Of a stretch of 54,404 nucleotides of DNA, positions 1 to 16,000 are shown in pieces. Every line of letters begins with the position of its first letter. The stretch's first letter is position 1. The DNA comes from a virus, in IMG/VR virus record IMGVR_UViG_3300043446_000267, positions 1 to 54,404 of that record. One strand, 5' to 3'. The translations under genes were made by a program, and so were the position numbers. The notes beneath the pieces were generated by a model that ran no database searches, was not told the origin of the DNA, and was given only the letters and a program-made list of their open reading frames with translations.

Positions 1-598
1 CGAAGGGATTTGAATTATTCCAACCCTGACAATTACGAACCATAATACACACTTGCCCTGTCTTAGCGATAGCTCGTTCAAATAACGCACGATGTCCTTT
101 ATGCCATGGTTGCCAGCGACCCAACATCTGTACAGTTTCTTTCTTACCATCAAATTGAGGGCGTCTACGATTATCTGCTATATGGTCACTAATAAACTCT
201 GCCCATTTATCTGCATTTTGTTCTGTTATTCTAAAATCATATAATTCAGGAGTTACGAACATCTTATTCGTATCTTCGTATCTTCCTTCATCTATTGTGT
301 CTACCCAGATAGTCCAATCTGCTCTAAAGTTATTACGCATTTCAACTAGAGGAGCAACAAAGTCTACGATACAATAATCAGTATTTGATGTATCTGCTAA
401 TTCACGCATACGATGGCTTTGACGAATACGACCCTCACGGCTAAAATCCCAATCATCATAGTGTCTACGGACTTCGTCAGCATTGAGCCAGCCTACAGTC
501 TTTCCGTGGTCTTGTAAATTTTTCTTTAGTCGTTCGGCTAAGTATGTTTTGCCTGCTCCGGGCAAGCCCATGATTAAAATACGCTGCGGTTGTTTCAT
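1..598 (-). CDS. APS-kinase-like P-loop kinase fused to a nucleotidyltransferase (partial, runs off the window)
   Basis: I translated about 199 codons from an ATG at 598; the 3' part lies outside the window. The N-terminus has a Walker A motif (GLPGAGKT, residues ~11-18), followed by ADEVRRHYDDWDFSREGR, which matches the layout of adenylylsulfate kinases (LDGDNVR...FSREDR) except that ADE replaces DGD. From about residue 158 a second domain starts with GRWQPWHKGHRALFERA. Its HxGH motif is typical of cytidylyl/NMN-adenylyl-type nucleotidyltransferases. The likely role is making an activated (phosphorylated or nucleotidyl-linked) small molecule, and the true substrate may be neither APS nor NMN. 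The start overlaps the stop of the upstream radical SAM gene by 4 bp (ATGA), so this is the most distal visible gene of the accessory operon. The domain assignment is good; the reaction is inferred. Confidence 0.8.
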   Translation of the reverse strand, partial: MKQPQRILIMGLPGAGKTYLAERLKKNLQDHGKTVGWLNADEVRRHYDDWDFSREGRIRQSHRMRELADTSNTDYCIVDFVAPLVEMRNNFRADWTIWVDTIDEGRYEDTNKMFVTPELYDFRITEQNADKWAEFISDHIADNRRRPQFDGKKETVQMLGRWQPWHKGHRALFERAIAKTGQVCIMVRNCQGWNNSNPF

Positions 599-1695
599 AC
601 CTTTTTATCCTCTAAGAACGTAATTAAACTGTCTCTTAAATCTTTTGATTGCTTATACATCTTGGTAGTAGGGTTTAATAAAGGAATATTATCGTCATAT
701 AGTCTAATAACCTTCTCAATCTCACTCTTTTCCATGTTGTGACAACTCATTGTTTCTGGGTAGTATAGATAGTTAAAGTTGACAGGTTCACTATGATTGA
801 ACTTAACATTCTCCATGATTATTTTATATAGCTCAAAAACATCCATGACATTAAATTTACTCACGGTCATTACTACTGAACAATTACTGTTATCATCAAA
901 CTCTCTGTTAACAATTTCTTCCTGACAGTACTTTAAGTTGGCTAATACTTCATCCCATTTAGCTCCCACTCTGAGTTCTTCAAACTTCTTCCCGTAACTA
1001 TCGATAGAGAAAGCTAACCAAACACCCCTGAACTTCTTCCATATATTGATTTCATCTCGTGTGGGTCTGAATGTTCCGTTAGTATTATACAATAACTGAG
1101 TTTGTTTAGTGTTTGTTAATTGGTCTAACCATTTAAAATGTGTTTTATTCATCAATGGTTCGCCACCAGCAATGTCTATTCTAAAATAATTATCGGGTGG
1201 AGTCATCTTTTCGTACTCTTTGATATCATAACTCCAAGCAATATCTTGCTGATAGATATCATACATCTTTCTAGATAGTTTGCCACTCTTTAGTTGCTCG
1301 GTAGCAATACTAGTAGAACAAGCTGGGGTACAGATTGTACATTGCAAATTACATAACCTGCCTGTCTTTAATTGTAGATATTCTAGTTGAACATTTCTAG
1401 GGTCTGACTTCATTAATCCTGATGTAAGCATCCACATATCTTGCTCTCGTTTACTAGCACGACCCTCTTCTTCTGCAAACTTACACTGATGGCAACCCCT
1501 TGGCCATTCACCTTTATCCATCTGCTCTCTATACTCATTAAACTCCCCATGAAGTACTTCACTGATATTCTGTACTTGTGTAATCTTGGTCTTTTTGTCT
1601 TCCATTTTAACGAAAAGACAGCAGGGAGTCAAGTATCCATCAGTGTCGATATGAACTGACTTCCACATTGATGGGCAATATATTTTATTTGTCAT
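595..1695 (-). CDS. Radical SAM protein, N-twitch type (paralogue 1 of 5)
   Basis: This protein has a CxxxCxxC cluster (CNLQCTIC, near residue 115-122 from the chosen start) for the SAM-binding [4Fe-4S] centre, followed by the radical SAM motif AGGEP. Before the barrel are extra cysteines: YCPS near the N-terminus, a CC pair and CHQC. This is the pattern of radical SAM proteins with an N-terminal twitch/SPASM-like auxiliary cluster. Family knowledge: such enzymes cleave SAM reductively to a 5'-deoxyadenosyl radical, often to modify peptides. The ATG at 1695 is preferred because it overlaps the previous stop as ATGA and places the first CP motif at the N-terminus as in the sister genes; an in-frame ATG at 1710 is the alternative. 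The substrate is unknown. Confidence 0.85.
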   Translation of the reverse strand: MTNKIYCPSMWKSVHIDTDGYLTPCCLFVKMEDKKTKITQVQNISEVLHGEFNEYREQMDKGEWPRGCHQCKFAEEEGRASKREQDMWMLTSGLMKSDPRNVQLEYLQLKTGRLCNLQCTICTPACSTSIATEQLKSGKLSRKMYDIYQQDIAWSYDIKEYEKMTPPDNYFRIDIAGGEPLMNKTHFKWLDQLTNTKQTQLLYNTNGTFRPTRDEINIWKKFRGVWLAFSIDSYGKKFEELRVGAKWDEVLANLKYCQEEIVNREFDDNSNCSVVMTVSKFNVMDVFELYKIIMENVKFNHSEPVNFNYLYYPETMSCHNMEKSEIEKVIRLYDDNIPLLNPTTKMYKQSKDLRDSLITFLEDKKV

Positions 1696-2960
1696 AGATT
1701 TATATACCAATTATAGGCTTCAATATCAATTATTTTCAATAATTCTTTAAATTGTCTGTTAGTCTTTAAGAATTTGTCACGGTACTCAGTCTTTTTCTTT
1801 ATCTCTTTGAGCATGTGTTGATTCTCAAACAAAACTTTCATATTCTCTCGTTCAACTATATATGACTGTAGGACGCTGACTGTTCTTTCCTTGCCCCTTA
1901 GGTTACTTCCTTCAAAACGCTTGATTGCATGATTGACAACTCTTTCGCATATCTCTTTAGGGAATAATCTAATATCTAAGAAACTTTGGGCACCCTGTGG
2001 GTATGAGCGTTCATCACATAGATACTTGTGATTGTATATTATAGGATTGTAGGGTTCAAAGAACTCAAACCATCTATCAATATCAAATATAACAGGGGCG
2101 GATAATACAGTAGCAACACCCGATTGTTTGTTCTTATTCAACACAGTAAAGAAGTCATGCCAATTCTTACTAACTTCGTCCCATTTGCCACCGTCTCTGG
2201 TATACTCAAATGTCTCGTGTGTACCGTCAATACTAGCTTGAATACTGGGCTGATGGAACTCTAATAATTGAGGAATACTCTTGCCCTTCCACAAACTCTT
2301 GGTCATGTTTGTATTATAGTGAACTCTGATATTCTTTACATAATCAGTATATTCAGGATTATCTAATAATTCACACATTTTGTCCACAACTTTCCAGTGA
2401 ACGTGACTAGACATTGGCTCACCGCCAGCCCAATAGATATAATTACATTCTTTCTTTAAGATAGATTGAATAATATCCTCAGCTTCTTGGTCTTCATATT
2501 CATAATCGATTTGAAACCCATCTTCAACGTTCCACATTTCTTTTCTAAGTTTAATATGCGTACTTGAGTAATGATATCCGCAACTAATACACTGTAAATT
2601 ACAATGTATTGTTCTATGGTCGAAATAGTTCGGTCCCACTGTCATTGTACCGTCTGGTTGCATGTTACGGGTAATGATATCTAAATCATTCTCGTTACAA
2701 CTTGTTTCTCGCAACGATTCAATGTTTAGTTTCTCAAACTCATAGCAACGACGGCAATCACTTACGGGTTCACCCTTAAGCATTTTAAGTCTGGTTTCTT
2801 TTAGTTTGTCACTGTTCCAGTATTCGTCTAGTGTAGTCTTTTCTAGTTCAGGAATATCTTGTGCGACACAGCATAATTTACGCTCATATCGTGAGCCAAT
2901 ATAACTGTGCGTGAAAGGATAGGGGCAAATTGATTTGTTGTTTTTAGAATCTATACTCAT
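1692..2960 (-). CDS. Radical SAM protein, N-twitch type (paralogue 2 of 5)
   Basis: The core motif HCNLQCISC (CxxxCxxC) is followed by WAGGEP. The N-terminal auxiliary cysteines are ICPYPF, LCC and CRRC. The reading frame stays open up to a GTG at 3002, but that would overlap the upstream gene by 59 bp. The ATG at 2960 has an upstream GGAGAG and puts the CPYPF motif about 12 residues from the N-terminus, as in its neighbours, so I chose it. It overlaps the upstream radical SAM gene by 17 bp and the downstream one by 4 bp, so translation is probably coupled. It is related to, but clearly diverged from, the other four paralogues. The biochemical class is clear from the motifs; the substrate is unknown. 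Confidence 0.85.
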   Translation of the reverse strand: MSIDSKNNKSICPYPFTHSYIGSRYERKLCCVAQDIPELEKTTLDEYWNSDKLKETRLKMLKGEPVSDCRRCYEFEKLNIESLRETSCNENDLDIITRNMQPDGTMTVGPNYFDHRTIHCNLQCISCGYHYSSTHIKLRKEMWNVEDGFQIDYEYEDQEAEDIIQSILKKECNYIYWAGGEPMSSHVHWKVVDKMCELLDNPEYTDYVKNIRVHYNTNMTKSLWKGKSIPQLLEFHQPSIQASIDGTHETFEYTRDGGKWDEVSKNWHDFFTVLNKNKQSGVATVLSAPVIFDIDRWFEFFEPYNPIIYNHKYLCDERSYPQGAQSFLDIRLFPKEICERVVNHAIKRFEGSNLRGKERTVSVLQSYIVERENMKVLFENQHMLKEIKKKTEYRDKFLKTNRQFKELLKIIDIEAYNWYINL

Positions 2961-4128
2961 AATTGAAAATGTCTCTCCAGTTTCCCATCTTTCTTGTTTC
3001 ACTTACAGCGTCTAAGAACTGTAAGCCTTGATTCCATAGTGTATCGTCCGTAGTCTTTGTATCTAAGTAAGACTGCATTGTTGCGGTTAGTATTTGATCC
3101 TTGAATTTACTATCAAAATACAAGTCATATAACTGTTCTTTGAACTCGTTACTAGCACAGTTTAAAGATAGATAATGGGGAAACACAACAAAGTTTTGAT
3201 TAATCGTAGTATGTGGTTTAATCTTAGTAATTGGGGTAGCCCACTCATAAAATTCATCTAAAAATGGGGCGTTTAACCATTGAATACTATTAGTAATATT
3301 CATTGAGGTTACGTTAGGATCATGTGCTAGTTTTAATATATGGTCGTTAGTCTTTTCCCAGTTAGCAGGGTATCTGATAAACTTGTTTCTGTCACCCACG
3401 CTATCTACTGAGCATCCTACATTTACGTCTTTAAAGTGTTTCCAATACTCACTATATGATTCATCGTATGTTGTACAGTTTGTGTTATAGCTTATACTGA
3501 TATTCTTAGCAACACCCCAGTCAATTAGTTTCTCAAGCATCTTCCACTGTATGGGCATGATAAATGGCTCGCCACCATTGATATACAAATACTTTAATGT
3601 GTCTTTATGCTTTTCTAATTGGTCAACAATACCCTCGTCAAACCATTGAAATAATTCATAGCTACTGTCATTATTAGAGACAAAGGGTAATTTTTCTGCC
3701 CATTTCTTATAATCAGCCGCTAACAAGGAACTACTGTCGGGGTAGCACATCATACACTTTAAATTACAAAGGTTACTCAAGCGCAAGTCAATGAATTCTA
3801 ATTTAGGCTCTGTAAAGTGACCCCAGCGATTAACTTCCATGTTTCTACGGCTAGAACCCCCGTGTTGTTCTATCTTATAACAGCCCTCACACGCTTTGGG
3901 TTCTTTGTTCTCTAATAACTCGTTGCGTATTTTAATATAAGTCTTGGAATTGTAAATCTCGTCTATAGTATTACGTCTTAGATTCATCATCATTCCGTTA
4001 TTATCCCGTGCGAAGCCACTATCTGGTCCGTCCATTTTACTTACACAACAAATACCCACATTGCCGTTAGGGTGAATATTCATGTGATTAAAGGGTAGTG
4101 GGCAATATTTATCCATAATAACTGTCAT
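2944..4128 (-). CDS. Radical SAM protein, N-twitch type (paralogue 3 of 5)
   Basis: CNLKCMMC lies at residues 121-128 and is followed by a GGEP motif (NGGEPFIMP). The N-terminus carries YCPLPFNH, then ICC and CEGC: four cysteines laid out as in an auxiliary iron-sulfur (twitch) module placed ahead of the barrel. The protein is 394 aa. The ATG at 4128 overlaps the upstream gene by 20 bp; a second in-frame ATG at 4116 gives MDKYCP and an 8-bp overlap and is equally plausible. It is most similar in motif layout to paralogues 1 and 2. It lies in the middle of the overlapping minus-strand operon. Function beyond radical SAM chemistry is not visible. Confidence 0.85.
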   Translation of the reverse strand: MTVIMDKYCPLPFNHMNIHPNGNVGICCVSKMDGPDSGFARDNNGMMMNLRRNTIDEIYNSKTYIKIRNELLENKEPKACEGCYKIEQHGGSSRRNMEVNRWGHFTEPKLEFIDLRLSNLCNLKCMMCYPDSSSLLAADYKKWAEKLPFVSNNDSSYELFQWFDEGIVDQLEKHKDTLKYLYINGGEPFIMPIQWKMLEKLIDWGVAKNISISYNTNCTTYDESYSEYWKHFKDVNVGCSVDSVGDRNKFIRYPANWEKTNDHILKLAHDPNVTSMNITNSIQWLNAPFLDEFYEWATPITKIKPHTTINQNFVVFPHYLSLNCASNEFKEQLYDLYFDSKFKDQILTATMQSYLDTKTTDDTLWNQGLQFLDAVSETRKMGNWRDIFNYEYRF

Positions 4129-5530
4129 CCATTAAGTATGTTAATTCAGGGAATGTATCTATAAAGTCTGTTTTGCGTCTAGTATCTAGTGCTTTAATAT
4201 AACTTCTAAAATCGTCATAAACCCGTTCATCCTCTTTCTTACTATTCATATAGTCAATCAACCGTTTCATCTGGTCAACTTCTTCTAAGTAAAATGTCTC
4301 TGACGGGTCTTTCTTGCTAGTTAGCATATTCTCATCCATGAACTGTTGCCATTCTCTACTGTACTTTTGTTTGTCTTCCTCACTCAATAGTGTAAGCTGG
4401 AAACACTCAGGCCAGCGCAAGTATGACAAATGTGTTCTAACTCTGAACTCGTGCTTACTGAACTTATATTTAAGTCTCAGGTCCTTGATTAATTGCAAAA
4501 AGTTAATTAATGTCGGGGCACTTGTTACATTAATAGTTGTCATAAAGTGCAAGTGCGTATTTTCCGGGGTATTATCTAATACCTTAAATACATTATTCAA
4601 GAATTCTTCATAATTCATTCCATATCTCGAATATTCACCCTGCTCACCCGTGTTTTCTAGTGATGTGTATACATCAACCATCTTTACATTATTAGAAATT
4701 AGATTGATTTCTTCAATCATCTTATCTACAAGTTTGTCCGGGGCGTTTAAGTTAGTGTTGATGGCGAACACTAGGTTATCGTTACTATGTTCTTTAATAT
4801 AATCAAACACTTTCCAGGTATGCTTGCTCAAAAGCGGTTCCCCGCCCGTGATTCTGAATGTGTGAAGTTTAGGATATAAGTCCGGCCACCACTTCCAAAA
4901 TGCTTCAATATAAGGATTATATTCTCTATTAGGAATAGGTAGTTGTCCGGTATCTTTTAGCCACTTAATATCATATAAGTTATAGTTACTCTGTGGGATA
5001 GGACCATGTTGTTCTACTTCTTCTTGCCATTTGCTAGAACTTGAAGGACTACAATAGATACACTTAAAGTTGCATGTTGAATCAAAAGCAACTTCCATGT
5101 ATGTAGGGTCAATATCTTTACCCTGACCCGATTTAACTACATCATTTAGATAGGGCAAAGACCATGAATATGTTGATTTATAGATACGGTCGCTGATATA
5201 ACTCTTATCTAAGTTCTCAATACGCCAGCAATAGTCACATTCTTTGGTTTGAATACCGTTTAATAACTCTTCCCTAGCGTGTATCTTAATTACTGTATTA
5301 TGGATACCCTTTGGGTTATCTTTGATATCGTCCAGTGTAATCTTGTGTCGTGAGGGATGGTGACATGAATGTGTTTCCCCGTTGTATAACAAGATAGTAG
5401 ACTGTAACCACTTAGCGAGGCACATTGTAGGGCTTACACTATTAATTTCTCGTGCTTTTTCATGCAGGAAATTAAAGTACGAATCTACTTTATGCACATC
5501 TAAGTTATTGTCTTTATGTTGTTCACTCAT
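4109..5530 (-). CDS. Radical SAM protein, N-twitch type (paralogue 4 of 5)
   Basis: CNFKCIYC is at residues 153-160 and is followed by ITGGEP. The N-terminal auxiliary region reads SPTMCLAKW, then SCHHPSRH, then CDYCWR. This histidine-rich CHHP variant replaces the CC pair of paralogues 1-3. The closest relative in the window is the next gene upstream (paralogue 5), which shares SPTxCxAKW, NGxTxSCHHP and CxYCWR, so these two form a subgroup and probably arose by duplication. The start overlaps the paralogue 5 stop by 8 bp (ATGAGTGA). The C-terminal ~100 residues are rich in K, E and D with no recognised domain. Confidence 0.85.
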   Translation of the reverse strand: MSEQHKDNNLDVHKVDSYFNFLHEKAREINSVSPTMCLAKWLQSTILLYNGETHSCHHPSRHKITLDDIKDNPKGIHNTVIKIHAREELLNGIQTKECDYCWRIENLDKSYISDRIYKSTYSWSLPYLNDVVKSGQGKDIDPTYMEVAFDSTCNFKCIYCSPSSSSKWQEEVEQHGPIPQSNYNLYDIKWLKDTGQLPIPNREYNPYIEAFWKWWPDLYPKLHTFRITGGEPLLSKHTWKVFDYIKEHSNDNLVFAINTNLNAPDKLVDKMIEEINLISNNVKMVDVYTSLENTGEQGEYSRYGMNYEEFLNNVFKVLDNTPENTHLHFMTTINVTSAPTLINFLQLIKDLRLKYKFSKHEFRVRTHLSYLRWPECFQLTLLSEEDKQKYSREWQQFMDENMLTSKKDPSETFYLEEVDQMKRLIDYMNSKKEDERVYDDFRSYIKALDTRRKTDFIDTFPELTYLMDDSYYG

Positions 5531-6872
5531 TTAATTCTCTTAATTTTAATAAATTGAACCATTCAATAAACAGTTCGGGGAAATAATCTTCCAATACCAT
5601 ATCTCTACGGTCTGAATATTCGTTTAAGAATATAATTAAATCGTTGGCTTTACTGTGATAATCATCATTGTCCTCGTATGCTTTGTCTACTTTCTGTAGG
5701 TATGCTACTAAGCGCAACACTTGATTATATTCAGATTCGGTTAGTTCTGTTTTCTTATCTTCTGCAAACTCATTTAATTCTGTAGCCAGTTTGTTTTTAA
5801 TATCACTATCAATCATATTAACTGACTGGAAGCTTGGGAAGCGCAAGATATTCAAACTCATGCTGAATATGTCTCGTCTGTTATATTGTTTTCTAAGATT
5901 CAATATATCCAGCATAAAGTCTTTAACTGTCCAGACGCTTAGTGCCGAAATAGTCATCATCACATGAATATTACGGTATTTTGCTTCTGATGCGAATCTT
6001 GTTAGATTATGTTTCCATTTATCATAGTTTAATCCATGACGGACAAACTCTGCGTGTTTACCATAACTCTCACAGCTAGTATATAAGTCAAAGTTCCTAA
6101 ACTGACCTGCGACTTCGATTAGTTTATCTAGTCTGTCATCGGTCATGATTAAGTTACTGTTAGTAGCAAAGTCAAAGTTACTACCCTTACACTCGTCTAA
6201 TAATCTCCAGAAGTGCGGGCTACGTGAGGGTTCTCCCCCAGTAACTCGCAACTCTTGTAGATTATGTTTCAATGAACCGTTTAACCACTCAAAGAAAGCA
6301 GTAATATATGGATTCTCTACTTGTTTATCTGTATTCAGTGTAAACTCTGCTGAATGCTTATAAGTATGCCCGCCGGGTGTTTTCATTCCCGGGTAAATAC
6401 CGTTACTCTTAATATCAGTTGACCAAGTTGAACTAAACTCTGAATTACAGTATGTACAACTTAAATTACATAAGTTATCAAACGCAATTTCTAGTGTCTT
6501 TGGGTCTAAATCTTCTTTATAGTTTGACTTCATTAGACTAACAATATCCATAGTCCTATAGATGTGGCTTTTGTATATTCTGTCACTGAATATTGTATCG
6601 TCTTTATTATCTTCTACACGCCAGCAGTAACTACACTCTTCGGGTCTTTGACCCTCAAGCATTAGTTTTCTCTGTTCTTTCTTGTAGTCGGTGTTATGAA
6701 GCGCCGAACTATTAACTTTAATCGACTCCACAGGAATGTGATGGGCGACTGGGTGATGACAACTTGCTGTTCTACCATTACTTAACCATATTGTTGCGTT
6801 GTACCATTTAGCGGCACAGAATGTTGGACTTACCGTGTCGATAAGTTTCTTTGTTTCGTTCAATGAGCGCAT
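5523..6872 (-). CDS. Radical SAM protein, N-twitch type (paralogue 5 of 5)
   Basis: CNLSCTYC is at residues 135-142 and is followed by VTGGEP. The auxiliary cysteines lie in SPTFCAAKW, SCHHPVAHH and CSYCWR, closely matching paralogue 4. It is the first radical SAM gene transcribed in the operon. Its start overlaps the stop of the upstream glycosyltransferase-like gene (TAATG). The protein is 449 aa, and its C-terminal part is predicted from composition to be largely helical. Radical SAM membership is firm; the substrate is not known. The tight fusion of this operon to glycosyltransferase genes is the best clue to its role. Confidence 0.86.
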   Translation of the reverse strand: MRSLNETKKLIDTVSPTFCAAKWYNATIWLSNGRTASCHHPVAHHIPVESIKVNSSALHNTDYKKEQRKLMLEGQRPEECSYCWRVEDNKDDTIFSDRIYKSHIYRTMDIVSLMKSNYKEDLDPKTLEIAFDNLCNLSCTYCNSEFSSTWSTDIKSNGIYPGMKTPGGHTYKHSAEFTLNTDKQVENPYITAFFEWLNGSLKHNLQELRVTGGEPSRSPHFWRLLDECKGSNFDFATNSNLIMTDDRLDKLIEVAGQFRNFDLYTSCESYGKHAEFVRHGLNYDKWKHNLTRFASEAKYRNIHVMMTISALSVWTVKDFMLDILNLRKQYNRRDIFSMSLNILRFPSFQSVNMIDSDIKNKLATELNEFAEDKKTELTESEYNQVLRLVAYLQKVDKAYEDNDDYHSKANDLIIFLNEYSDRRDMVLEDYFPELFIEWFNLLKLRELNE

Positions 6873-7819
6873 TACCAGCCCTCGATTTTACGAATCACAT
6901 CCATTTCCTTTACTAGAGGACCTAGATTATGTTTGTCACTGTTATAATGACGCTTAAAGAACATTGATTGCTCGGGACTCAATGTACAGATAGGTAAGCC
7001 TAATTTATATTTTAAATGGTCACCAATTTCGTCAGCACCATCTTTGGGACTAACATTCTGCTCATGGAGCCAGAGTTTCTCGAAATTATCAAACCATTGA
7101 ACTTCTTTGGGATCCCACTCAGTAAGCATAGTCATATATGTACCTAGTCTAGCTCCATAGATAGCCCACATTCCGTTCTCAACATCTGTCCCTACGTTGT
7201 GCCAGATAGTTAAGTTGTTCATGTTTCTACCGGGTACATCTCCTTTGAAATCTTCTACTGAAGGTTTCTTTCCACCGTTCAAGCACATCTTAACACCTTC
7301 ACGGAATCCAGCACGCCATGCTTGGAAGGGAGTATAGTTGGGATAAGTTGTACTATAACAATCCCACATAGCCCAGTAAGTATTGTTCTGACTATCTAAG
7401 CAAAAGTCTACTGTAGTTGTATCATTGCCATCACTATGCTCATGGGTTTTCATGTTCATAACATAAGTCTTTGTCCATGAACTCATACCACCGTTGCCAT
7501 AACGCAAGCCATTGATACTATTGATAGCTTTCCATCTAAACTGTGCTTGTTGATAGATAGGGTCTTTGTCTCTAAAGTCAAACTGAAGATTAAAGAAATC
7601 TTCGTTCGGCATATTGTCTCCGTCGATTAGAATAAATCGTTCAGTAGAAGAGGCTTCCGCGGCTGCTTTATGAGCCGCATCACTGCCCTTAACACCGTCG
7701 ACACGGATCGCCCAGGGTACCATGTTCTTAATCTTGACCCAAAATTCTTCTTTCTGTGGTTCGTCATAACTCAAATAGATACAGTCTAAATCTGCTACAT
7801 CTACAATATCATAATTCAT
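6872..7819 (-). CDS. Glycosyltransferase-like protein with a DxD motif
   Basis: This is a 315-aa protein. It contains RFILIDGDNMPNEDFF (residues ~81-96): a hydrophobic strand ending in DGD, the usual nucleotide-sugar/metal-binding signature of GT-A fold glycosyltransferases. It is preceded by an alanine-rich segment (AAHKAAAEASS) as in GT-A proteins. The N-terminal CIYLSYDEPQKEEFW region resembles phage proteins annotated as glycosyltransferase-like. There is no signal peptide or transmembrane segment. It overlaps both neighbours (TAATG with the radical SAM gene). The family call rests on the DxD and its surroundings only; donor and acceptor are unknown. Confidence 0.55.
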   Translation of the reverse strand: MNYDIVDVADLDCIYLSYDEPQKEEFWVKIKNMVPWAIRVDGVKGSDAAHKAAAEASSTERFILIDGDNMPNEDFFNLQFDFRDKDPIYQQAQFRWKAINSINGLRYGNGGMSSWTKTYVMNMKTHEHSDGNDTTTVDFCLDSQNNTYWAMWDCYSTTYPNYTPFQAWRAGFREGVKMCLNGGKKPSVEDFKGDVPGRNMNNLTIWHNVGTDVENGMWAIYGARLGTYMTMLTEWDPKEVQWFDNFEKLWLHEQNVSPKDGADEIGDHLKYKLGLPICTLSPEQSMFFKRHYNSDKHNLGPLVKEMDVIRKIEGW

Positions 7820-8141
7820 AGTGTTTTAGTTCCCAATGTTTAGATGGTCCAGTGTAATCTTCATTTACAATAATAAACACATCTTCACTTGAAGTTCTAG
7901 TTCCTGTTGTTGATTCTTCTAACACAGATAAGACCAACCCTGTAATCTTTTCTTGTATCTTGCCGTTGATGACTTTCACATCCGGGCGACCCTGTGCAAA
8001 CACTTCGGGTGACACAACAATGAATTGCCCCTCAAGTTTGTCACAAGTATAACATATTACTGAGCCGTTGTCATCATAATATAGTCTAAATTCGGGTGGA
8101 ACAAACACTGGAATTTCAAAATCAAGTTCTATTTCATCCAT
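7809..8141 (-). CDS. Conserved-looking small protein of unknown function
   Basis: This is a 110-aa acidic protein with no family I recognise. It contains a central CYTC (CxxC) in a predicted beta-rich context and a proline-rich N-terminus (EIPVFVPPEF). It lies between two glycosyltransferase-like genes and overlaps both by 8-11 bp, so it is certainly translated as part of the operon. Because the operon has five radical SAM enzymes and no obvious peptide substrate, this protein and the 101-aa protein are the only small candidates for a carrier or substrate. That is speculation. Confidence 0.6.
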   Translation of the reverse strand: MDEIELDFEIPVFVPPEFRLYYDDNGSVICYTCDKLEGQFIVVSPEVFAQGRPDVKVINGKIQEKITGLVLSVLEESTTGTRTSSEDVFIIVNEDYTGPSKHWELKHYEL

Positions 8142-8898
8142 AATGTTTCTCCAAAGTGTTACTAAACTGTTTCACATGGTAATGTAATGGGTACTTTTGC
8201 GGGAACCCGTTGATGCGTATTGTTTCGGGTAATATCTCAGTGATTAACTCTCTAGTCCAATCATCTTGTATCAACCCATTAATATGACGCTTCATATGTG
8301 TCATAGTCATTTCAGTAAATGTAGGTAGTGTAGTATTTTCTACACCCAGCAAGTGACACGCAATAGAATATACCCAGTCAGTAGTTGCTATCTCGTCAGG
8401 ATCACACTTTAAGATTTTCTTGTACTGTTCCCAGTTTTGAAAGATATTCCTAACTGTGTTAAAGAAATCTTCAGCAACTGGTGATTTTTTAAAATAAGTC
8501 ATAGCGTTATATACATTAGGTAATTTGTTATCGACTATGAACTTTCTGTAGAACATATTATTTGATACTTCACCCTTAAAGTTTCTAACATTTGAACTTA
8601 CAACAACATCACGTTCTTGCAAGATATCCCACCAGTATGAGATATCGCTAGTGATAACCATATCTGCTTCTAGTTTGATTGTATACTCGTAAGGGCTTGC
8701 TTCGTAAACTTGATAATCGTTAATCAACTTCCACTTACTGTCGGGGGCTAAATCGCCCTCAGGTAACATATCACTGGTTATGATAGTGACACTCTCATTG
8801 GGCATTAGTCTTTTAATACTTTGTTCAAGCTGTTTAGCACAGGATACGTAATCTGTATCTTCTGTGTTCTGAGCCATGATTACAAATCCTCTGTTCAT
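8134..8898 (-). CDS. Glycosyltransferase-like protein (GT8-like, EADM motif)
   Basis: This is a 254-aa protein. The N-terminus FVIMAQN followed by VTIITSD fits the first beta-alpha-beta unit of a GT-A nucleotide-sugar-binding domain. YTIKLEADMVITSDISYWW (residues ~72-90) provides the metal-binding DxD-type motif as EAD. It resembles the gene immediately upstream in architecture, so the two are probably paralogues. The late part has YPLHYHVKQFS with histidines that may close the active site, as in GT8 enzymes (inference). It overlaps the upstream gene by 4 bp (ATGA) and the downstream gene by 8 bp. Confidence 0.65.
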   Translation of the reverse strand: MNRGFVIMAQNTEDTDYVSCAKQLEQSIKRLMPNESVTIITSDMLPEGDLAPDSKWKLINDYQVYEASPYEYTIKLEADMVITSDISYWWDILQERDVVVSSNVRNFKGEVSNNMFYRKFIVDNKLPNVYNAMTYFKKSPVAEDFFNTVRNIFQNWEQYKKILKCDPDEIATTDWVYSIACHLLGVENTTLPTFTEMTMTHMKRHINGLIQDDWTRELITEILPETIRINGFPQKYPLHYHVKQFSNTLEKHYG

Positions 8899-9683
8899 AT
8901 TAACTCCAAGAAGTTCTTTTTGTTTAACATATGGAAATCCATATCTTTCACAACTAGGTACTCTTTTCTCAATTTATTTCGTTGCCAGTTATCATACATA
9001 ACTGTATATTCTGTGTCTGATTCACGGTAAACTGTTGTATTGTTTCCAACATGAACTAGATTCCATGGCAGATAGTTTCTGTTATCTTCGGTGTGCCCGT
9101 TAACTATCCTAGTTGCTATCGTCAGTGAAAAGTCGTTTCTGTACATTAGACTATTCAACCTATAGCTATTCATGTAATGGTTATAGTTGTCTTGAACCAT
9201 TTTCATACATTCAAACACTTGCTTACTGTAAGTTGATTTTCTAAATCTAATCACAGTAGCCCATAGTGTTCTGATGCTGTAGTTGCTCATTAGTTCCTGT
9301 GATGCGTCCGGTACCATTAGTACACTTGTAGAACTATGACATACTAAGTCTGAATCAAAATCAAAAGTCTTTAACAGTGTTTGACTGTTAACCATATAAT
9401 CGGTATCAAGTACGATTGTTTCATCGTATGGACTAAACTCATACGCATTATATCTACCCTTATTGATCCACAATTCTTTATCTTTAAGATTACTAGTGTC
9501 TGCTTGATTCACTATTACTTTGTCAAATGTATAATCGTAACTATCAATGTCGGTAGACTCATCAGTGACAACGGTTACGGGCAAGTCTAGAAAACGATTG
9601 ATTCGTTTAGCAGTAGCAACTGCCATTTTAAAATAATCGAACTTTCTATTGTTGTACGCAAATAAGATTACGCCCTTGCTCAT
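8895..9683 (-). CDS. Glycosyltransferase-like protein (GT8-like, DTDY motif)
   Basis: This is a 262-aa protein. It starts GVILFAYNNRKFDYFKMA and continues with LDLPVTVVTDES, a common opening of phage and bacterial GT8-like proteins (LAYN...A...LP..LVTD). ETIVLDTDYMVNSQTLL near residue 90 gives the DxD motif. The substrate pocket cannot be read from sequence. It is translationally coupled to both neighbours through ATGA overlaps. With the 254-aa and 315-aa proteins it makes three glycosyltransferase-like enzymes in a row, enough to build or elaborate a short glycan. Confidence 0.65.
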   Translation of the reverse strand: MSKGVILFAYNNRKFDYFKMAVATAKRINRFLDLPVTVVTDESTDIDSYDYTFDKVIVNQADTSNLKDKELWINKGRYNAYEFSPYDETIVLDTDYMVNSQTLLKTFDFDSDLVCHSSTSVLMVPDASQELMSNYSIRTLWATVIRFRKSTYSKQVFECMKMVQDNYNHYMNSYRLNSLMYRNDFSLTIATRIVNGHTEDNRNYLPWNLVHVGNNTTVYRESDTEYTVMYDNWQRNKLRKEYLVVKDMDFHMLNKKNFLELI

Positions 9684-9985
9684 CTCTTGTTCTCAAGTTC
9701 TTTGTACTCGTTGTACCATTGTTCCATTACGTTGTTGTATGTGTCTCTTACTTTAACCAACAACTGTTGTCTGTTTACTTTGACTGGGTTTCCAAATGAG
9801 TCAACTAAAATCATTTCTTCTAACACTGTGCTGTCTAGAAAAACAATAAGTTCGGGTGTGACTTTCCACAAGCCACCTTGCTCTGCTACAGAGAGCTTTG
9901 ATTGATATTTGTCTGAGAGATATGCTTTGGCTGAATTATGACTGAATCTAGCTTTGGCTTCTTTAATAAGGTTTTCGGTATCCAT
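9680..9985 (-). CDS. Small conserved T4-like phage protein of unknown function, first gene of the accessory operon
   Basis: This is a 101-aa protein starting MDTENLIKEAKARFSHN, with QGGLWKVTPELI in the middle. I recognise the pattern (KEAKARF...QGGLW..TPELI.FL) as recurrent in T4-like phages of aquatic bacteria, always as a hypothetical protein. The ATG at 9985 is chosen because AGGAG lies 5 bases before it; an upstream in-frame GTG at 9991 would leave no room for that site. A late-promoter-like ATTAAATA lies just upstream. Its end overlaps the next gene by 4 bp. Confidence 0.7.
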   Translation of the reverse strand: MDTENLIKEAKARFSHNSAKAYLSDKYQSKLSVAEQGGLWKVTPELIVFLDSTVLEEMILVDSFGNPVKVNRQQLLVKVRDTYNNVMEQWYNEYKELENKR

Positions 9986-10002
9986 AAACACTCCTGAGAG
10001 TA

Positions 10003-10033: not shown

Positions 10034-11014
10034 TTAAACGATACTAGATACTGATCCTGTTACTGTTGGGGTTCCCCAAGTATTAGATAGATATGTAGTT
10101 GATGGTGGACATACAGTTAATGTAACTTGTGTTCCAGCAGCCACAGTATCCACTGTAGTATGTAGACCTGTGTTTTGAGTACTAACTTCATCCAGGGTAA
10201 CAGTGAATGTTAGTATGTTTCCATTATCACCTTTAGATAATTGTGTACCGTTTGTACTTGCATCGATTTGGAAGAATGTGCCTAAATATTTAGTTACTGA
10301 TGATGCGGGGTCAGCTAGTTGCTTGAATATTGTTTGTGCAGTAGTAGTTAAACCATAGTAACCTAAGTTGGTACCAGTAGTTGCAGGTGTACCTGAACCT
10401 CCTACTTTAGTTACTCCATTATAACTTGTACCTGCAATAGTTACAGCGCCTGAGCTTGGTGCACTGATTGCAACTGTACCAATCGCTGTACATAATGCGT
10501 TCAATAATTGGTTAACACCTGCAGTAGTTGTAGCGTGACTAGCAGTAAATTTAATCTGTCCGCCTGCATTAAAAAAATAACGAGCTTGTTCAGCAGTACC
10601 AAAAGTAACAGTAAAGGTATAAGTAATCTTATCTAACCAAGTACCAGAAGTTGAAACAGATGTAGATGAAGTAGTACCTTGTGCTGCTGCATTATTTCTA
10701 GCATTGTAGATAGTGGTTAAGTTTGTAGGCAATGCTGAAAGATAGGCAATCTTTTGTCCTGTCTGAGGAGCATTCAATGCAGTTACGGCTACGCCTTGAT
10801 GACTTGCAATGTTAGTAACACCGTTAATTAATGAAGCCCAGTTTGATGCTGTAACTTTAGTCTGTGATGCAACGTTTGCAAGTGCGGTTTGACCATAACC
10901 AGCAGTGCTAGTTCCACTAGCCCATACTGTATTATATGTGTTTGCGTCTGTGCCTGTACCCAATAAACTGTTATAGTCACCGCTTACAATTTTTTGTCTT
11001 GATGCGTAAGTCAT
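10034..11014 (-). CDS. Virion structural protein, probable fibre or fibre-associated
   Basis: This is a 326-aa protein rich in T, S, A, G and N with almost no charged residues, typical of trimeric phage fibres and appendages. Repeated beta-strand-like segments (TYTFTVTFGTAEQARYFF, then FNAGG) match a motif seen in structural proteins of marine T4-like phages. The N-terminus has YASRQKIVSGDYNSLL. It follows another fibre-type gene with a 9-bp gap and its own ribosome site (AAGGAT). Receptor binding is possible but not shown. It is the last gene of the fibre module and directly precedes the modification operon. Confidence 0.6.
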   Translation of the reverse strand: MTYASRQKIVSGDYNSLLGTGTDANTYNTVWASGTSTAGYGQTALANVASQTKVTASNWASLINGVTNIASHQGVAVTALNAPQTGQKIAYLSALPTNLTTIYNARNNAAAQGTTSSTSVSTSGTWLDKITYTFTVTFGTAEQARYFFNAGGQIKFTASHATTTAGVNQLLNALCTAIGTVAISAPSSGAVTIAGTSYNGVTKVGGSGTPATTGTNLGYYGLTTTAQTIFKQLADPASSVTKYLGTFFQIDASTNGTQLSKGDNGNILTFTVTLDEVSTQNTGLHTTVDTVAAGTQVTLTVCPPSTTYLSNTWGTPTVTGSVSSIV

Positions 11015-11023
11015 TTTATATCC

Positions 11024-12250
11024 TTACTTCGTAATTGCAACGATTGCTAAAACTGTTCCCAATTCTTCAGTTGTTTTATGTTCTAATGCACGACCGATAA
11101 CGTTAAACGCCGTAGCCTCGCCCTTCTTAGCTGCACGGGCTTTGCCCTTACCAGCAGAAACTAGACGCTGTCCTTTACGAACTGCACCTACGACTTTAAC
11201 TTGAACTCTACCTGAAACAGCGATTGCTGGATGAGTTTTATCTGAACCTGCTTTACCGTTCATAGTGAAAGCTGCCGTATTAGAAACGACACCAAAAACT
11301 TCTTCAGATAATTCGTCTACTACCGCAGTAACTTCTTTTTCGCCACCGATTTCTAGTACAGTACCTGCATCATAGTGGTCGTCTGCTTCAAAACGTTCTG
11401 CTAAGTCAGCATAAGTTGCTTCAATTCTAGCACCTGTGCCCAATGTCCAGATACCTGTAATTTCGCCACCGCCCGCGATAAAGTTAGTAGTTAACTTGTT
11501 AACTTGAAGATTAGCAGTTGATCCTCTTAAAGAGTAGTATGCTGATGGTAAGAAATCTGCTACGTTTGCGTTTGTGTATGTACCTGATGGATTGAACGCG
11601 GCACCGTTTGCGTACATATAGTTATCGCACTTGATACCGTTAACGCTTGATCCAGCAAATGCAATGTTACCACTAACAACAGAGAAAGCATTGCCACCGG
11701 TAGCGTTGTTACCAACTACACTCCAAGTACCAGTGATTGTACCTGCAGTAGTTGCAGAACCAGTAGTAATAGTTGTAGTTGTAATAGAAGGGATATCAGC
11801 TTGTGTGATGTTACCTGTAACTGCTGTAAGTGTTTCTGATACAGTAGCTAGACGCACAGTGATAGAATCACCTATGATTGCACCATCTACTGTTAAATCA
11901 CCACCGATGCCAACATCGCCTGTTGTAGTGATATTACCCAGTGTAGTGTCACCCGAAGCGTTGGTTGCCGCTAGTGTCACCCAAGTAGCTGGGTTAGTTA
12001 CACCGTCTGTAGGGCAAACGTTTAACGTGCCTGTACCAGTGTTATACCATAACTGACCTCGCAATGCGTTGATTGGTGGTGTTCCACTTGCATAATTCTC
12101 AAGTTGACGGACAAAGTTTGTGTTTAAAGTCTGACCGTAACCTGCATAGTTTCTACCGGGTAAGCCCAAGGAAGTGCTGGTTGTATTAATTGTACCATCT
12201 TGGATGGTTGTTAATGTAGTCCCATCGCTTCTTATAATTGTATATGCCAT
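11024..12250 (-). CDS. Tail-fibre-type structural protein with C-terminal YADLAERF domain
   Basis: This is a 408-aa protein. The N-terminal part has the motif YGQTLNTNFVRQLENYA followed by LRGQLWYNT, the usual N-terminal module of fibre/appendage proteins in aquatic T4-like phages (YG...N...LLENFA...GQLWYD). The middle is T/G/N-rich beta repeat. The C-terminus, from about residue 270, contains ATYADLAERFEAD, VFGVVSNTAAFTMN and HPAIAVSGRVQVKVVG. This domain is common at fibre C-termini and resembles the intramolecular chaperone/self-cleaving (peptidase G2-like) ends of tail spikes; cleavage here is inference. A GATAAATA late promoter lies upstream, and GGAG precedes the ATG. Confidence 0.75.
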   Translation of the reverse strand: MAYTIIRSDGTTLTTIQDGTINTTSTSLGLPGRNYAGYGQTLNTNFVRQLENYASGTPPINALRGQLWYNTGTGTLNVCPTDGVTNPATWVTLAATNASGDTTLGNITTTGDVGIGGDLTVDGAIIGDSITVRLATVSETLTAVTGNITQADIPSITTTTITTGSATTAGTITGTWSVVGNNATGGNAFSVVSGNIAFAGSSVNGIKCDNYMYANGAAFNPSGTYTNANVADFLPSAYYSLRGSTANLQVNKLTTNFIAGGGEITGIWTLGTGARIEATYADLAERFEADDHYDAGTVLEIGGEKEVTAVVDELSEEVFGVVSNTAAFTMNGKAGSDKTHPAIAVSGRVQVKVVGAVRKGQRLVSAGKGKARAAKKGEATAFNVIGRALEHKTTEELGTVLAIVAITK

Positions 12251-12287: not shown

Positions 12288-12914
12288 TTAAACCGTTACC
12301 AAGTTAGTTAGCGACTGGATTCGGATTGTGTAATCAATCTGAATCTGACGGTTCAAACTCTTTTGTACAGGGTGAAAAATAACGTGAGTAAGTAGTTTTG
12401 ACTGCTCAAAACCACGTGAATCTACCCCATAGTCTGCAAGTAATCCAATTTCGTCAAACATAAACTGAGAATCAGCCTGTGTACCGTTATCGAATGCAGA
12501 TTGACCGTCTGGTTCGCCGTAATCTAGTAAGCACTGAACAATGATGTCAGTATAGACTTTACCGGCTGTGTGACTAGGGACCATCTTATTACGTGATGGG
12601 TCGCCGTTTAAAACGTTTGTGTCGTCAACGATTTTTTGATATGTCTGATTATATAAACCAGCGTTTTGACCAGTAGTGTTAGGTGGCAAGTATGTGATAA
12701 TACCAGTATCGTCAATACTTGAGCCACCGTTTCCAAAAGCCATTTTAAAGATTGAGCCGAAGCCACGTGAACTTAATGTGTCTGCAATGGCTACTGAAAT
12801 GTTCTCATAGTGAATTGCGTTATGACCATCATAAAAAACCTCATAAGTTTCTGGATTTGGATCGTAGACCTTTAAAAAGCCCTCGATGGTAATTGGAATT
12901 GATGCATGTGCCAT
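12288..12914 (-). CDS. Virion structural protein of unknown role
   Basis: This is a 208-aa protein opening MAHASIPITIEGFLKVYDPN, with a predicted beta-rich N-terminus, a glycine-rich central stretch (FKMAFGNGGSS) and a C-terminus ending in QIDYTIRIQSLTNL. The type is recurrent in aquatic T4-like phages between the large baseplate proteins and fibres, but I cannot equate it with a T4 protein (the position corresponds to the gp8-gp10 area). Its start overlaps the stop of the 48-aa gene by one base (TAATG). The motif FLKxxDPN is shared with that small upstream protein. Confidence 0.6.
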   Translation of the reverse strand: MAHASIPITIEGFLKVYDPNPETYEVFYDGHNAIHYENISVAIADTLSSRGFGSIFKMAFGNGGSSIDDTGIITYLPPNTTGQNAGLYNQTYQKIVDDTNVLNGDPSRNKMVPSHTAGKVYTDIIVQCLLDYGEPDGQSAFDNGTQADSQFMFDEIGLLADYGVDSRGFEQSKLLTHVIFHPVQKSLNRQIQIDYTIRIQSLTNLVTV

Positions 12915-13074: not shown

Positions 13075-16000
13075 TTAATAAGACCCGGTTCTTAGGAATT
13101 TCGCCGCCGGGGTCGAGCTAATCTGCATAGGATCTCCCATTGGAGTAATATCTGTACTACTCATAATGTTGTTATAGAAGATAGCATCTAGTTTAGTTAC
13201 ATCATTGAAACCATGTACATAGGATTCTGTGTTATGAATCTTTCTGATACCGGTGCCCTTGATGCCCCTAGTTAGACCAGAAACTGTGTTTGAGACATAA
13301 TCGACTGTTCTAAAGTGAATCTGCTCACCATTGATTTCAACGATATGACCAATTTGAAGTGTGATGACCAAGTTATCGCCCTCAGAAACTCCTGAGTTAA
13401 AGATTACTGTAGGTCTACTATTGACGTTTTTAACAACATACTGGTCTTTGCCCAAAGTTGTCAATGTGTTGATGTTCTGGACAATCAAACCTGACAAATC
13501 TTCAATTCTGTAAGATAGCTGTGCAACAACACCTGAATCAGTAGTTACTGCCGACACATTTTCAACAACGTTATTAACTAGTTTTCTAGCATTATTAACG
13601 TGGATTGAATCTTCATATACATATAACGGTTGAGTCAACCAAACATTATCTTGTACTCTGTGAATTTCTCCGTTACCCTTCTTGTCAACACTGATGTGAT
13701 AAATCAGTTGACCTGGAGTAGCATCTGATACCATAGAAGTAATCATAACTTTGTCACCTACTGATATAGGAGCCATGATACTTAACTTATTATCTTCGTT
13801 GTAACGTAGATTTTCTGGATTTACACGTTCACCGTTTACAGTAACCCAAGTTCTTGATCCAGTTGTATAAGTGAAGTCGCTAGTAATTTGAACAGTATCT
13901 TCATCTTTCCATGCATATCCGCTTGGAATAAACTTACCTAAGCCACTGCCACTCGTTGGTGGGAAGAATACTAGGTCTTGACCTTGTAATGTCACTTGTT
14001 CGTATAATTCAAAAGATTTAGCAGTCTTAACTTTTACATAATGTGTAGTATTGTTTAACTCCAACATTCCTTTTAATCCGTCAATACGGATCAAGTCACC
14101 ATCAACGAACGAGTGGTTATCTTTCGTTGTAATTGTGATAGTTGGGTATCTTTCACCTGATACAACAATCGAGGAAGTATTGTCAACAAACGCAAAAGAA
14201 CTAGTTTCAAATGTGTCAAGTTCAGTAGTTACTAGTTGTTGACGCTTAGTGTCATGGTACGTTGTTACGCTAACAATATCACCCTCAGCTAAAGTATCAA
14301 TGATAGTAATTGTACTCAAGTTTGTGTCGAATGAATATTGTGTTGAGCTTAGACGATTTCCGTTTAATTCTACAATAGCATCATCGACAGTTGAGCCACC
14401 GATATAATTTACTAAAGTAAATGTGTTAGAATCTGCATAAACAAACACTTCTGTTTCAGGTAAACTGTAACCAAACTTAATATTGTTGTATTCCGGAACA
14501 AGTGTAGAACTTAAAATCACAAATGTGATATAATCTACTGCAGGATCATATAAGTTGTCGAACGTAACTCTAGTTCCCTCAGGGATGAAGGCTACTTCAA
14601 AATCGTTGCTTGACAACTTAACTCCGTTGCAGAAAACAACTGGGTCAAAGTTTACATCACTTGTGCTAAACAAACTAAAGTTTTGAACATACTTATAATT
14701 TGACAATGTAAATTGGCTTGTACCAGTATCTGCATTTACCCCTAAAGGTGTGCTGATAGAGTTGGTTCTAATTACTTCTCTACCGTTACCGAAATCATAA
14801 ACTTCAACAAACACTGATTCAGTTGTAGCTACTGCCATGTTCATGGTAATAGTCTTACTGACCCAGTTAACAGAATATGTATATGGATTCTGTGATGTTG
14901 GTGTGATATCTTGGTAGATTCTAGTAGACAATCCTGTAATCTTATCTTCAACGAAAACTGCAATTTGAACAGGGTTATCTAATATACCATCAAAACTAAA
15001 CTTGTTATTAAAGTCTGGAGTTACTCTCTTTGATTCCATTCCAAAACCAGTGTATCCATATACAATGTCGTTTTGAGTGTCAATCAATGTGTTAGTATCC
15101 CAGAAAGCACCAGGCTTAGTAATGACTTTCATGCTTAACGTATCATTAACAATACCGGCTACTAATTCTTCAGGACCATAACCCGAAACGAAGTCGTCAC
15201 CTTTAATTGTATAATTAGGTAGTTTGCTTGTAATGAAAGAAACATCTTGCCATGTCACGCCATCATCATTACTACGGATAATTACACCATAGTCGCCTGC
15301 GGCGATAAAGTATTCTCCGTCGAATGTAATTGACTTCAAGTTCTTGTTAGTTCCTGAAGTTTGTGTGTAGAATTCAATACCATCATCAGATGTTAGGACT
15401 GCTCCAGTATCGCCTACTAGAACGAACACACCATTTGCGTAGATGCTACCTCTAATAGTTGACGATGTAACTCCGTTAACGTTAGATTCAGTCCAACTTA
15501 CGCCGTTATTAGAACGATAAATTGTTGCGTTTGAACCGGCAGCAATAATTACTGCTTCAGATGATGTTACTGTGTGTAGTTGTTCATTAGTGAAGATAGG
15601 ATCGACTAAATTCCACTCACTGCCATCAACTGATAACAATACTCTACCAACTTGTTCGATTACAGGGGCAGCAGAATCAGCACCACTGATAACTTTCATG
15701 CCATAACCAACAGCAACTAAACCGGCATAGTTGAAACACTCTACGACAGTAATTGACTTCAATACGTTTGGTAATTTACTACCAATCATATAAACATCAT
15801 TCCAAATCAAACCGTTTGAACTCTTGATGACATAACCCTTGTCGCCCACTGCGTAGTAATCACCGTACAATGTAGCAATCGCACTCATTGGATATCTAGG
15901 TGCTTGAACTCCGGTACTATCAAAGCCCGATTCGCCGAATATGATAACATCATACGGTGTGTACGCTCCTAGTGTTTCCCAATTTTGAATATCAAAACTG

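Follow-up and report, generated by a model that had tools for sequence, protein, structure and literature searches.

The window analysed here is the whole of the virus record IMGVR_UViG_3300043446_000267 of IMG/VR (54,404 bases), and it carries five tandem genes for radical S-adenosylmethionine (SAM) enzymes with an N-terminal twitch domain (N-twitch), which were found to be associated with a gene designated f4. This association between f4 and radical SAM genes is the strongest new link of the analysis and was observed in phages, in bacterial chromosomes and in one gene fusion. The favoured reading, with a probability of roughly 45%, is that the diverged, active N-twitch enzymes tailor one glycan or glycoconjugate in a stepwise manner, which might be displayed on the virion tail or on the host surface. 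A glycan or glycoconjugate is the best guess because of the f4 link, the glycosyltransferase family 8 (GT8)-like genes in the same run of genes and the sugar enzymes found near the arrays of relatives.

The radical SAM array and its partner f4

An earlier note, written from the sequence alone, had described five tandem, diverged N-twitch radical SAM genes in a phage. Both parts held. The window contains T4-like baseplate, portal and head-protease genes, and the five open reading frames (ORFs) all lie on the minus strand, overlap by 8–59 nucleotides (nt) and score above the curated cut-off (170 bits, whole protein) of NF033640 (N_Twi_rSAM), the NCBIfam model for N-terminal twitch radical SAM proteins. 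No match above this cut-off was obtained in 14 control genomes. As had been claimed, none of the five proteins lacks the motifs CxxxCxxC and GGEP or the N-terminal cysteines, and all seven cluster cysteines are intact. Four of these lie in the N-terminal twitch region and would hold a single auxiliary cluster. Also the grouping into a CP...CC type at the low coordinates (three genes) and a CHHP type at the high coordinates (two genes) was recovered in the tree. The CHHP proteins fall into two clades, A and B, and the remainder forms a variable class c (CC-type). The genes are listed in the order of transcription, with f4 in front:

6872..7819, minus strand: f4, GT-A-fold protein and radical SAM partner (AlphaFold2 model, invariant DGD, co-occurrence)
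5523..6872, minus strand: N-twitch radical SAM class B (CHHP), 449 amino acids, first transcribed of the array, NF033640 287 bits
4109..5530, minus strand: N-twitch radical SAM class A (CHHP), 473 amino acids, clade A, 306 bits
2944..4128, minus strand: N-twitch radical SAM class c (CP...CC), 394 amino acids, 300 bits, Pfam SPASM and Radical_SAM
1692..3002, minus strand: N-twitch radical SAM class c, 436 amino acids as listed with a GTG start, 233 bits, cysteines present
595..1710, minus strand: N-twitch radical SAM class c, 371 amino acids as listed with a TTG start, 225 bits, cysteines present

The TTG start of 595–1710 and the GTG start of 1692–3002 are probably too early, with in-frame ATG codons at about 1695 and 2960. 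Among the matches listed, the best relatives of the class B protein are 56–58% identical.

For f4, no Pfam match was found and no PDB sequence match that yielded a function. Its AlphaFold2 model (predicted local distance difference test, pLDDT, 87.5) was compared with known folds, and GT-A chains ranked best, many of them aligning with Z scores of up to 9.5 and a root mean square deviation of 3.0–3.4 over about 140 residues, all within residues 1–177. A DGD motif is invariant in f4, which suggests a protein that might transfer sugars from nucleotide sugars.

A scan with f4 as the query, independent of the radical SAM query, was reduced from the closest 80 of 127 relatives to 67 distinct loci. 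Each of the 51 f4 loci with at least 7.5 kb of downstream sequence carries at least one N-twitch radical SAM gene (51/51). The array begins with class A in 45 of these loci, class B is present in 29, all of which also have A, and six contain class c without A. As the set consists of the closest 80 of 127 relatives, these loci are not independent lineages.

Recurrence and conservation in phages and bacteria

Scanning IMG/VR with the gene 5523–6872 gave at least 600 matches. The best 80 radical SAM loci were condensed to 53 non-redundant ones with 1–8 tandem radical SAM genes each, mostly 2–7. When 30 records were searched over their whole length, 1–17 copies were found in each (1–16 in the 24 viral ones). 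Relatives almost always show the order A-B-c(n), usually with A first, whereas the order B-A-c-c-c of the window is the sole case among the loci examined. Thus, of the five-gene order that the earlier note had proposed to look for, the array as such recurs and the exact order does not. Class B without A was encountered only in L051, outside the f4 set. In a second group of phages, without f4, its place is occupied by different transferases of the GT7, GT2-like and DUF6734 families. There, A and B stand behind a GT7 gene with a LamG domain, a GT2-like gene, a methyltransferase gene and DUF6734, and in front of genes that, judged by eye from their sequences, encode the tail sheath and tube. Genes next to the arrays of relatives encode a NodU-type carbamoyltransferase, a dTDP-sugar epimerase, a DegT aminotransferase, a thiamine diphosphate-dependent E1 component and a nucleoside diphosphate (NDP)-sugar nucleotidyltransferase/kinase, and by inspection also SGNH-hydrolase-like proteins, epimerases and sugar dehydrogenases.

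All 226 proteins of the set have the three cysteines of the radical SAM cluster and three of the auxiliary ones; the first auxiliary cysteine is found in 225 (the exception being one alignment gap) and the layout C-x(12-35)-C-x(30-70)-CxxC in 223. The set is somewhat biased against degenerate copies because it was found by homology. The median ratio of nonsynonymous to synonymous substitution rates (dN/dS) is 0.067–0.085 across classes A, B and c, and judged by this ratio the N-twitch family is under purifying selection. The suggestion that these are probably active enzymes is therefore well supported at the level of sequence. Decay of the cysteines or loss of the cluster in relatives, either of which would have spoken against the earlier proposal, was not seen.

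For none of 225 genes did the nearest relative lie inside its own array (pairs with more than 90% identity between loci excluded), and the median best identity is 72.5% between loci and 32% within an array. A recent tandem duplication was rejected on this ground, and the genes therefore appear to be old, separately maintained paralogues. The multi-step pathway that had been proposed for the array is supported as an inference, because of the A-B-c grammar and the absence of recent duplication.

Some family members deviate in size. Three radical SAM proteins (L081:8834-10651, L154:10706-12655 and L157:12743-14449) have about 100–150 additional N-terminal or internal residues, and L187:13465-16095 encodes a single protein of 876 amino acids with two complete N-twitch radical SAM units. 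In L204:1449-4058, a class A enzyme is preceded within the same protein by a radical-SAM-like region with GGEP but no CxxxCxxC, perhaps a pseudo-enzyme.

Among cultured phages, tblastn searches of phage isolates with the window genes and f4 gave almost no matches, and Vibrio phages were reached only through intermediate sequences. Vibrio phage K566 has five family members, two of them above the NF033640 cut-off. Four are interspersed with two GT8 genes and one weaker, GT4-like match; the fifth lies about 10 kb away. Forty Vibrio phage records, including KVP40 and nt-1, contain 1–5 places similar to the K566 members. Like the window, KVP40, nt-1 and K566 carry c-type homologues, which were scored for K566 and KVP40; neither A, B nor f4 was found in these three phages, and most members fall below the cut-off. 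The N-twitch homologues of KVP40 (L202:5056-7162 and L202:13445-14497) and its relatives are publicly labelled 'heme biosynthesis', 'moaA/nifB/pqqE' or 'QueE'.

Cellular genomes were scanned with a c-type alignment, since the alignment of all five proteins was too diverse for this purpose. N-twitch genes were detected in 41 of 144 Bdellovibrionota genomes, with 1–11 copies that are often clustered, versus 2 of 229 genomes of the class to which G004 belongs. G004 is a gammaproteobacterial metagenome-assembled genome (MAG) and may itself contain a phage contig. f4 was present in nine of the 144 Bdellovibrionota genomes, all of which belong to the 41 with N-twitch genes (P 6e-6, assuming independence and ignoring phylogeny). 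In several of the f4-positive genomes, f4 has as neighbours a radical SAM gene and f45, the latter methyltransferase-like in sequence. The fusion was found in L208:887-2794, also from Bdellovibrionota, where the f4 domain forms the C-terminus of a radical SAM/SPASM protein (residues 400–629, E 4e-54). In L184, a contig of a gammaproteobacterial MAG, several N-twitch genes and phage-like families occur together with a homologue of f4; this is possibly a phage contig that was binned into the MAG.

Neighbouring genes in the window

The earlier note had called the five genes an operon. The overlap of the genes fits this proposal, but the extent was understated, as the overlapping run covers eleven ORFs at positions 1–9991 (gaps of -1 to -59) and includes two GT8-like genes and f4. 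In the order of transcription, the run comprises f6, the two GT8-like f2 genes, f44, f4, the radical SAM genes B-A-c-c-c and a gene with APS-kinase-like and cytidylyltransferase-like domains that closes it and shares 4 nt with the radical SAM gene 595–1710. It is preceded by the tail-fibre-like or structural genes f17, f12 and f5 together with an ORF of 5148 amino acids. The genes around the array and f4 are:

1..598, minus strand: APS-kinase-like and cytidylyltransferase-like domains, incomplete at the window edge (PF01583 E 6e-12; PF01467 E 4e-4)
7809..8141, minus strand: f44, small conserved protein between the GT8-like genes and f4, position kept in f4 loci
8134..8898, minus strand: f2, GT8-like (glycogenin-like) glycosyltransferase, glycogenin-1 profile match, phrog_1903
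8895..9683, minus strand: second f2 paralogue, GT8-like glycosyltransferase, member of alignment A5
9680..9991, minus strand: f6, small protein 3' of the tail-fibre-like genes, conserved position
10034..11014, minus strand: f5, putative tail-fibre-like or virion structural protein (from position and composition), syntenic in f4 loci
11024..12250, minus strand: f12, tail-fibre-like virion structural protein, phrog_14394 virion structural protein, E 1e-11
12288..12914, minus strand: f17, conserved protein encoded after the giant tail-region gene and before the tail-fibre-like genes, phrog_11259 (E 3e-65), no function attached

The GT8 assignment stems from an 18-member profile compared with glycogenin-1 (E 6e-7). 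No family match was found for f5. The giant ORF of the tail region (13075–28521) is rich in Thr, Val, Ser and Asn with 0.2% Cys, and relatives were found only for a small part of it. The domains of the protein at 1–598 could activate a phosphate- or alcohol-type substituent. For f3, a PDB sequence search gave no function, and a resemblance to a fucosyltransferase C-terminus noticed by eye was unsupported by any search.

Proposed function, alternatives and known systems

In the proposed mechanism, a sugar chain would be assembled by the GT8-like proteins and f4, either on a tail-fibre protein or on a carrier or a surface glycan of the host. The class A enzyme would then abstract a hydrogen atom from a sugar of the chain by means of its radical SAM cluster, and the single auxiliary 4Fe-4S cluster, held by the four N-terminal cysteines, might accept electrons or anchor the substrate, as such clusters do in other twitch enzymes. 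Class B would act after class A, and the class c enzymes may add strain-specific changes such as dehydrogenation, epimerisation, deoxygenation or C-methylation. The NDP-sugar enzymes and carbamoyltransferases near the arrays of relatives could supply additional decoration. The purpose is likely a variable glycan that would alter receptor binding, shield the virion or remodel the host surface against superinfection. A wider proposal, that a modular, strain-variable assembly line of radical SAM enzymes in aquatic phages and predatory Bdellovibrionota performs different radical reactions in series, the substrate being a glycan or a virion protein that bears one, with A as the entry enzyme and f4 as the transferase partner, is put forward tentatively and is rather doubtful as a whole.

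The AlphaFold2 model of class A (pLDDT 91.8) has BlsE, SkfB, DesII and MoaA as its closest folds, tied at Z 12.6–13.5. BlsE and DesII are sugar-substrate enzymes, and the matches favour none of the three substrate kinds, sugar, peptide or nucleotide, over the others. The earlier note had seen no substrate gene. This is right for a peptide precursor, but the coupling to glycosyltransferase and tail-fibre-like genes had been missed. Several observations weigh against a glycan as the target. Neither a substrate nor a product has been seen, the fold match of f4 is moderate and no proof of a transferase, and the proximity of transferases in phages is weak evidence because phage hypervariable regions are rich in glycosyltransferases anyway. 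The peptide enzymes SkfB, SuiB and anSME are also among the closest folds with tied Z scores, the KVP40 members are scattered, the radical SAM/SPASM partner in the L208 fusion is not an N-twitch enzyme, and several Bdellovibrionota arrays lie amid housekeeping genes with no transferase nearby.

The main rival is that the target is a tail-fibre protein or another protein of the virion, whose amino-acid side chains or backbone the enzymes modify by cross-links, epimerisation or C-methylation, and that the glycosyltransferases occupy this variable region independently of them. Radical SAM enzymes with SPASM or twitch domains mostly modify peptides, SkfB is the best sequence-profile PDB match of the c enzymes (E 1e-6) and the array stands behind tail-fibre-like genes. 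Against it, f4 and radical SAM genes also go together in bacterial chromosomes where no tail genes are evident, one radical SAM enzyme carries a fused f4 domain, and the housekeeping surroundings in Bdellovibrionota speak against a virion protein as well. This explanation has perhaps something like one chance in five.

It is rather improbable that a lipid or lipopolysaccharide component of the host is modified without a new glycan, so that the envelope is altered during infection. Predatory Bdellovibrionota would then share the chemistry because they too live inside Gram-negative cells. The enrichment in aquatic phages and Bdellovibrionota and a PagP gene close to the K566 cluster would fit, but no recurrent lipid enzyme was found beside the arrays, and the argument from the niche is speculation.

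Three further explanations fail the sequence-based tests applied to them. Maturation of a small precursor peptide to a toxin, signal or cofactor, as for ribosomally synthesised and post-translationally modified peptides (RiPPs), is suggested by weak superfamily-level matches to RiPP maturases, but it is improbable: no precursor gene was found in the overlapping run 1–9991, where genes that overlap end to start leave no room for one, and 94 of 164 consecutive gene pairs overlap in relatives. In addition, all scores for maturase equivalogs are far below the cut-offs, and there is no peptidase or exporter among the annotated recurrent neighbour families. A role in host auxiliary metabolism (synthesis of pyrroloquinoline quinone (PQQ), haem d1, molybdopterin or 7-deazaguanine) would agree with the old KVP40 labels and with a QueC-like gene nearby in KVP40 and in one Bdellovibrionota cluster. 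It is very improbable, as none of the window proteins comes near the equivalog cut-offs for these pathways (MoaA: 30 versus 284 bits), PqqE (TIGR02109) is not listed for any of them at E 0.1, and 1–8 copies per locus and up to 16 per viral record are ill-suited to a fixed pathway. The PQQ reading, put forward in the literature for certain lake phages and their radical SAM genes, was dropped for the window for lack of a PqqE match. Equally improbable is viperin-type counter-defence or antiviral chemistry on modified nucleotides: viperin is a recurrent second-best profile match and is among the close folds, but it scores 16–33 bits against an NF038283 cut-off of 180, viperins have no N-terminal four-cysteine domain, and the array genes sit among virion structural genes.

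The earlier note knew of no such pathway in phages, which went too far, since phages with many radical SAM genes (PMC5332604) and radical SAM cassettes (PMC7029224) have been published, though without a mechanism. In pelagimyophages, such cassettes make the difference between two host-recognition clusters (PMC7029224). This cluster, likewise from T4-like phages, is a variable region that combines radical SAM cassettes with tail fibres and glycosyltransferases; the same three kinds of genes occur together in the window, where the tail-fibre identity of f5 and f12 is partly inferred. The pelagimyophage cluster lies between VrlC and gp14, and the window, a 54 kb fragment, was compared by gene content. 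In that paper, the cassettes are mentioned without family, order, partner or mechanism. A T4-like environmental marine viral genome has 12 radical SAM genes together with Fe-S carrier genes, which were read as Fe-S cluster usage (PMC5332604). It resembles the present case in its high number of radical SAM genes, and was described without arrays or a glycan link. The open-access literature (subscription papers and preprints lay outside the search) contained no paper that addresses what N-twitch radical SAM enzymes do in phages or in Bdellovibrio.

The five window proteins are members of NF033640, a sequence class without assigned function. The present analysis adds its division into A, B and c, the grammar of the arrays and a partner, f4. 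The f4 link and the A-B-c grammar appear undescribed. The sugar-active enzymes BtrN (twitch), DesII and BlsE have a fold comparable to that of the window enzymes and are unrelated in sequence beyond the superfamily; the twitch domain of BtrN is C-terminal, whereas that of the window enzymes is N-terminal. Phage thymidine hypermodification with a radical SAM step would come with genes for a dUMP hydroxymethylase, a hydroxymethyl-dU kinase and a transferase; the array described here sits among tail genes.

Radical SAM enzymes perform chemistry that is within reach of few other enzymes, and to our knowledge phages rarely retain costly, oxygen-sensitive enzymes without use. Old database labels such as haem biosynthesis and moaA/nifB/pqqE have obscured the family, and the question can now be tested in cultured Vibrio phages, which carry homologues. 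If the glycan reading is true, the arrays, with up to eight genes per locus and on hundreds of environmental phage contigs, would represent a new layer of variation of the receptor-binding surface or of remodelling of the host envelope, and the assembly line, if it exists, would be a new kind of system that creates diversity in host recognition after glycosylation.

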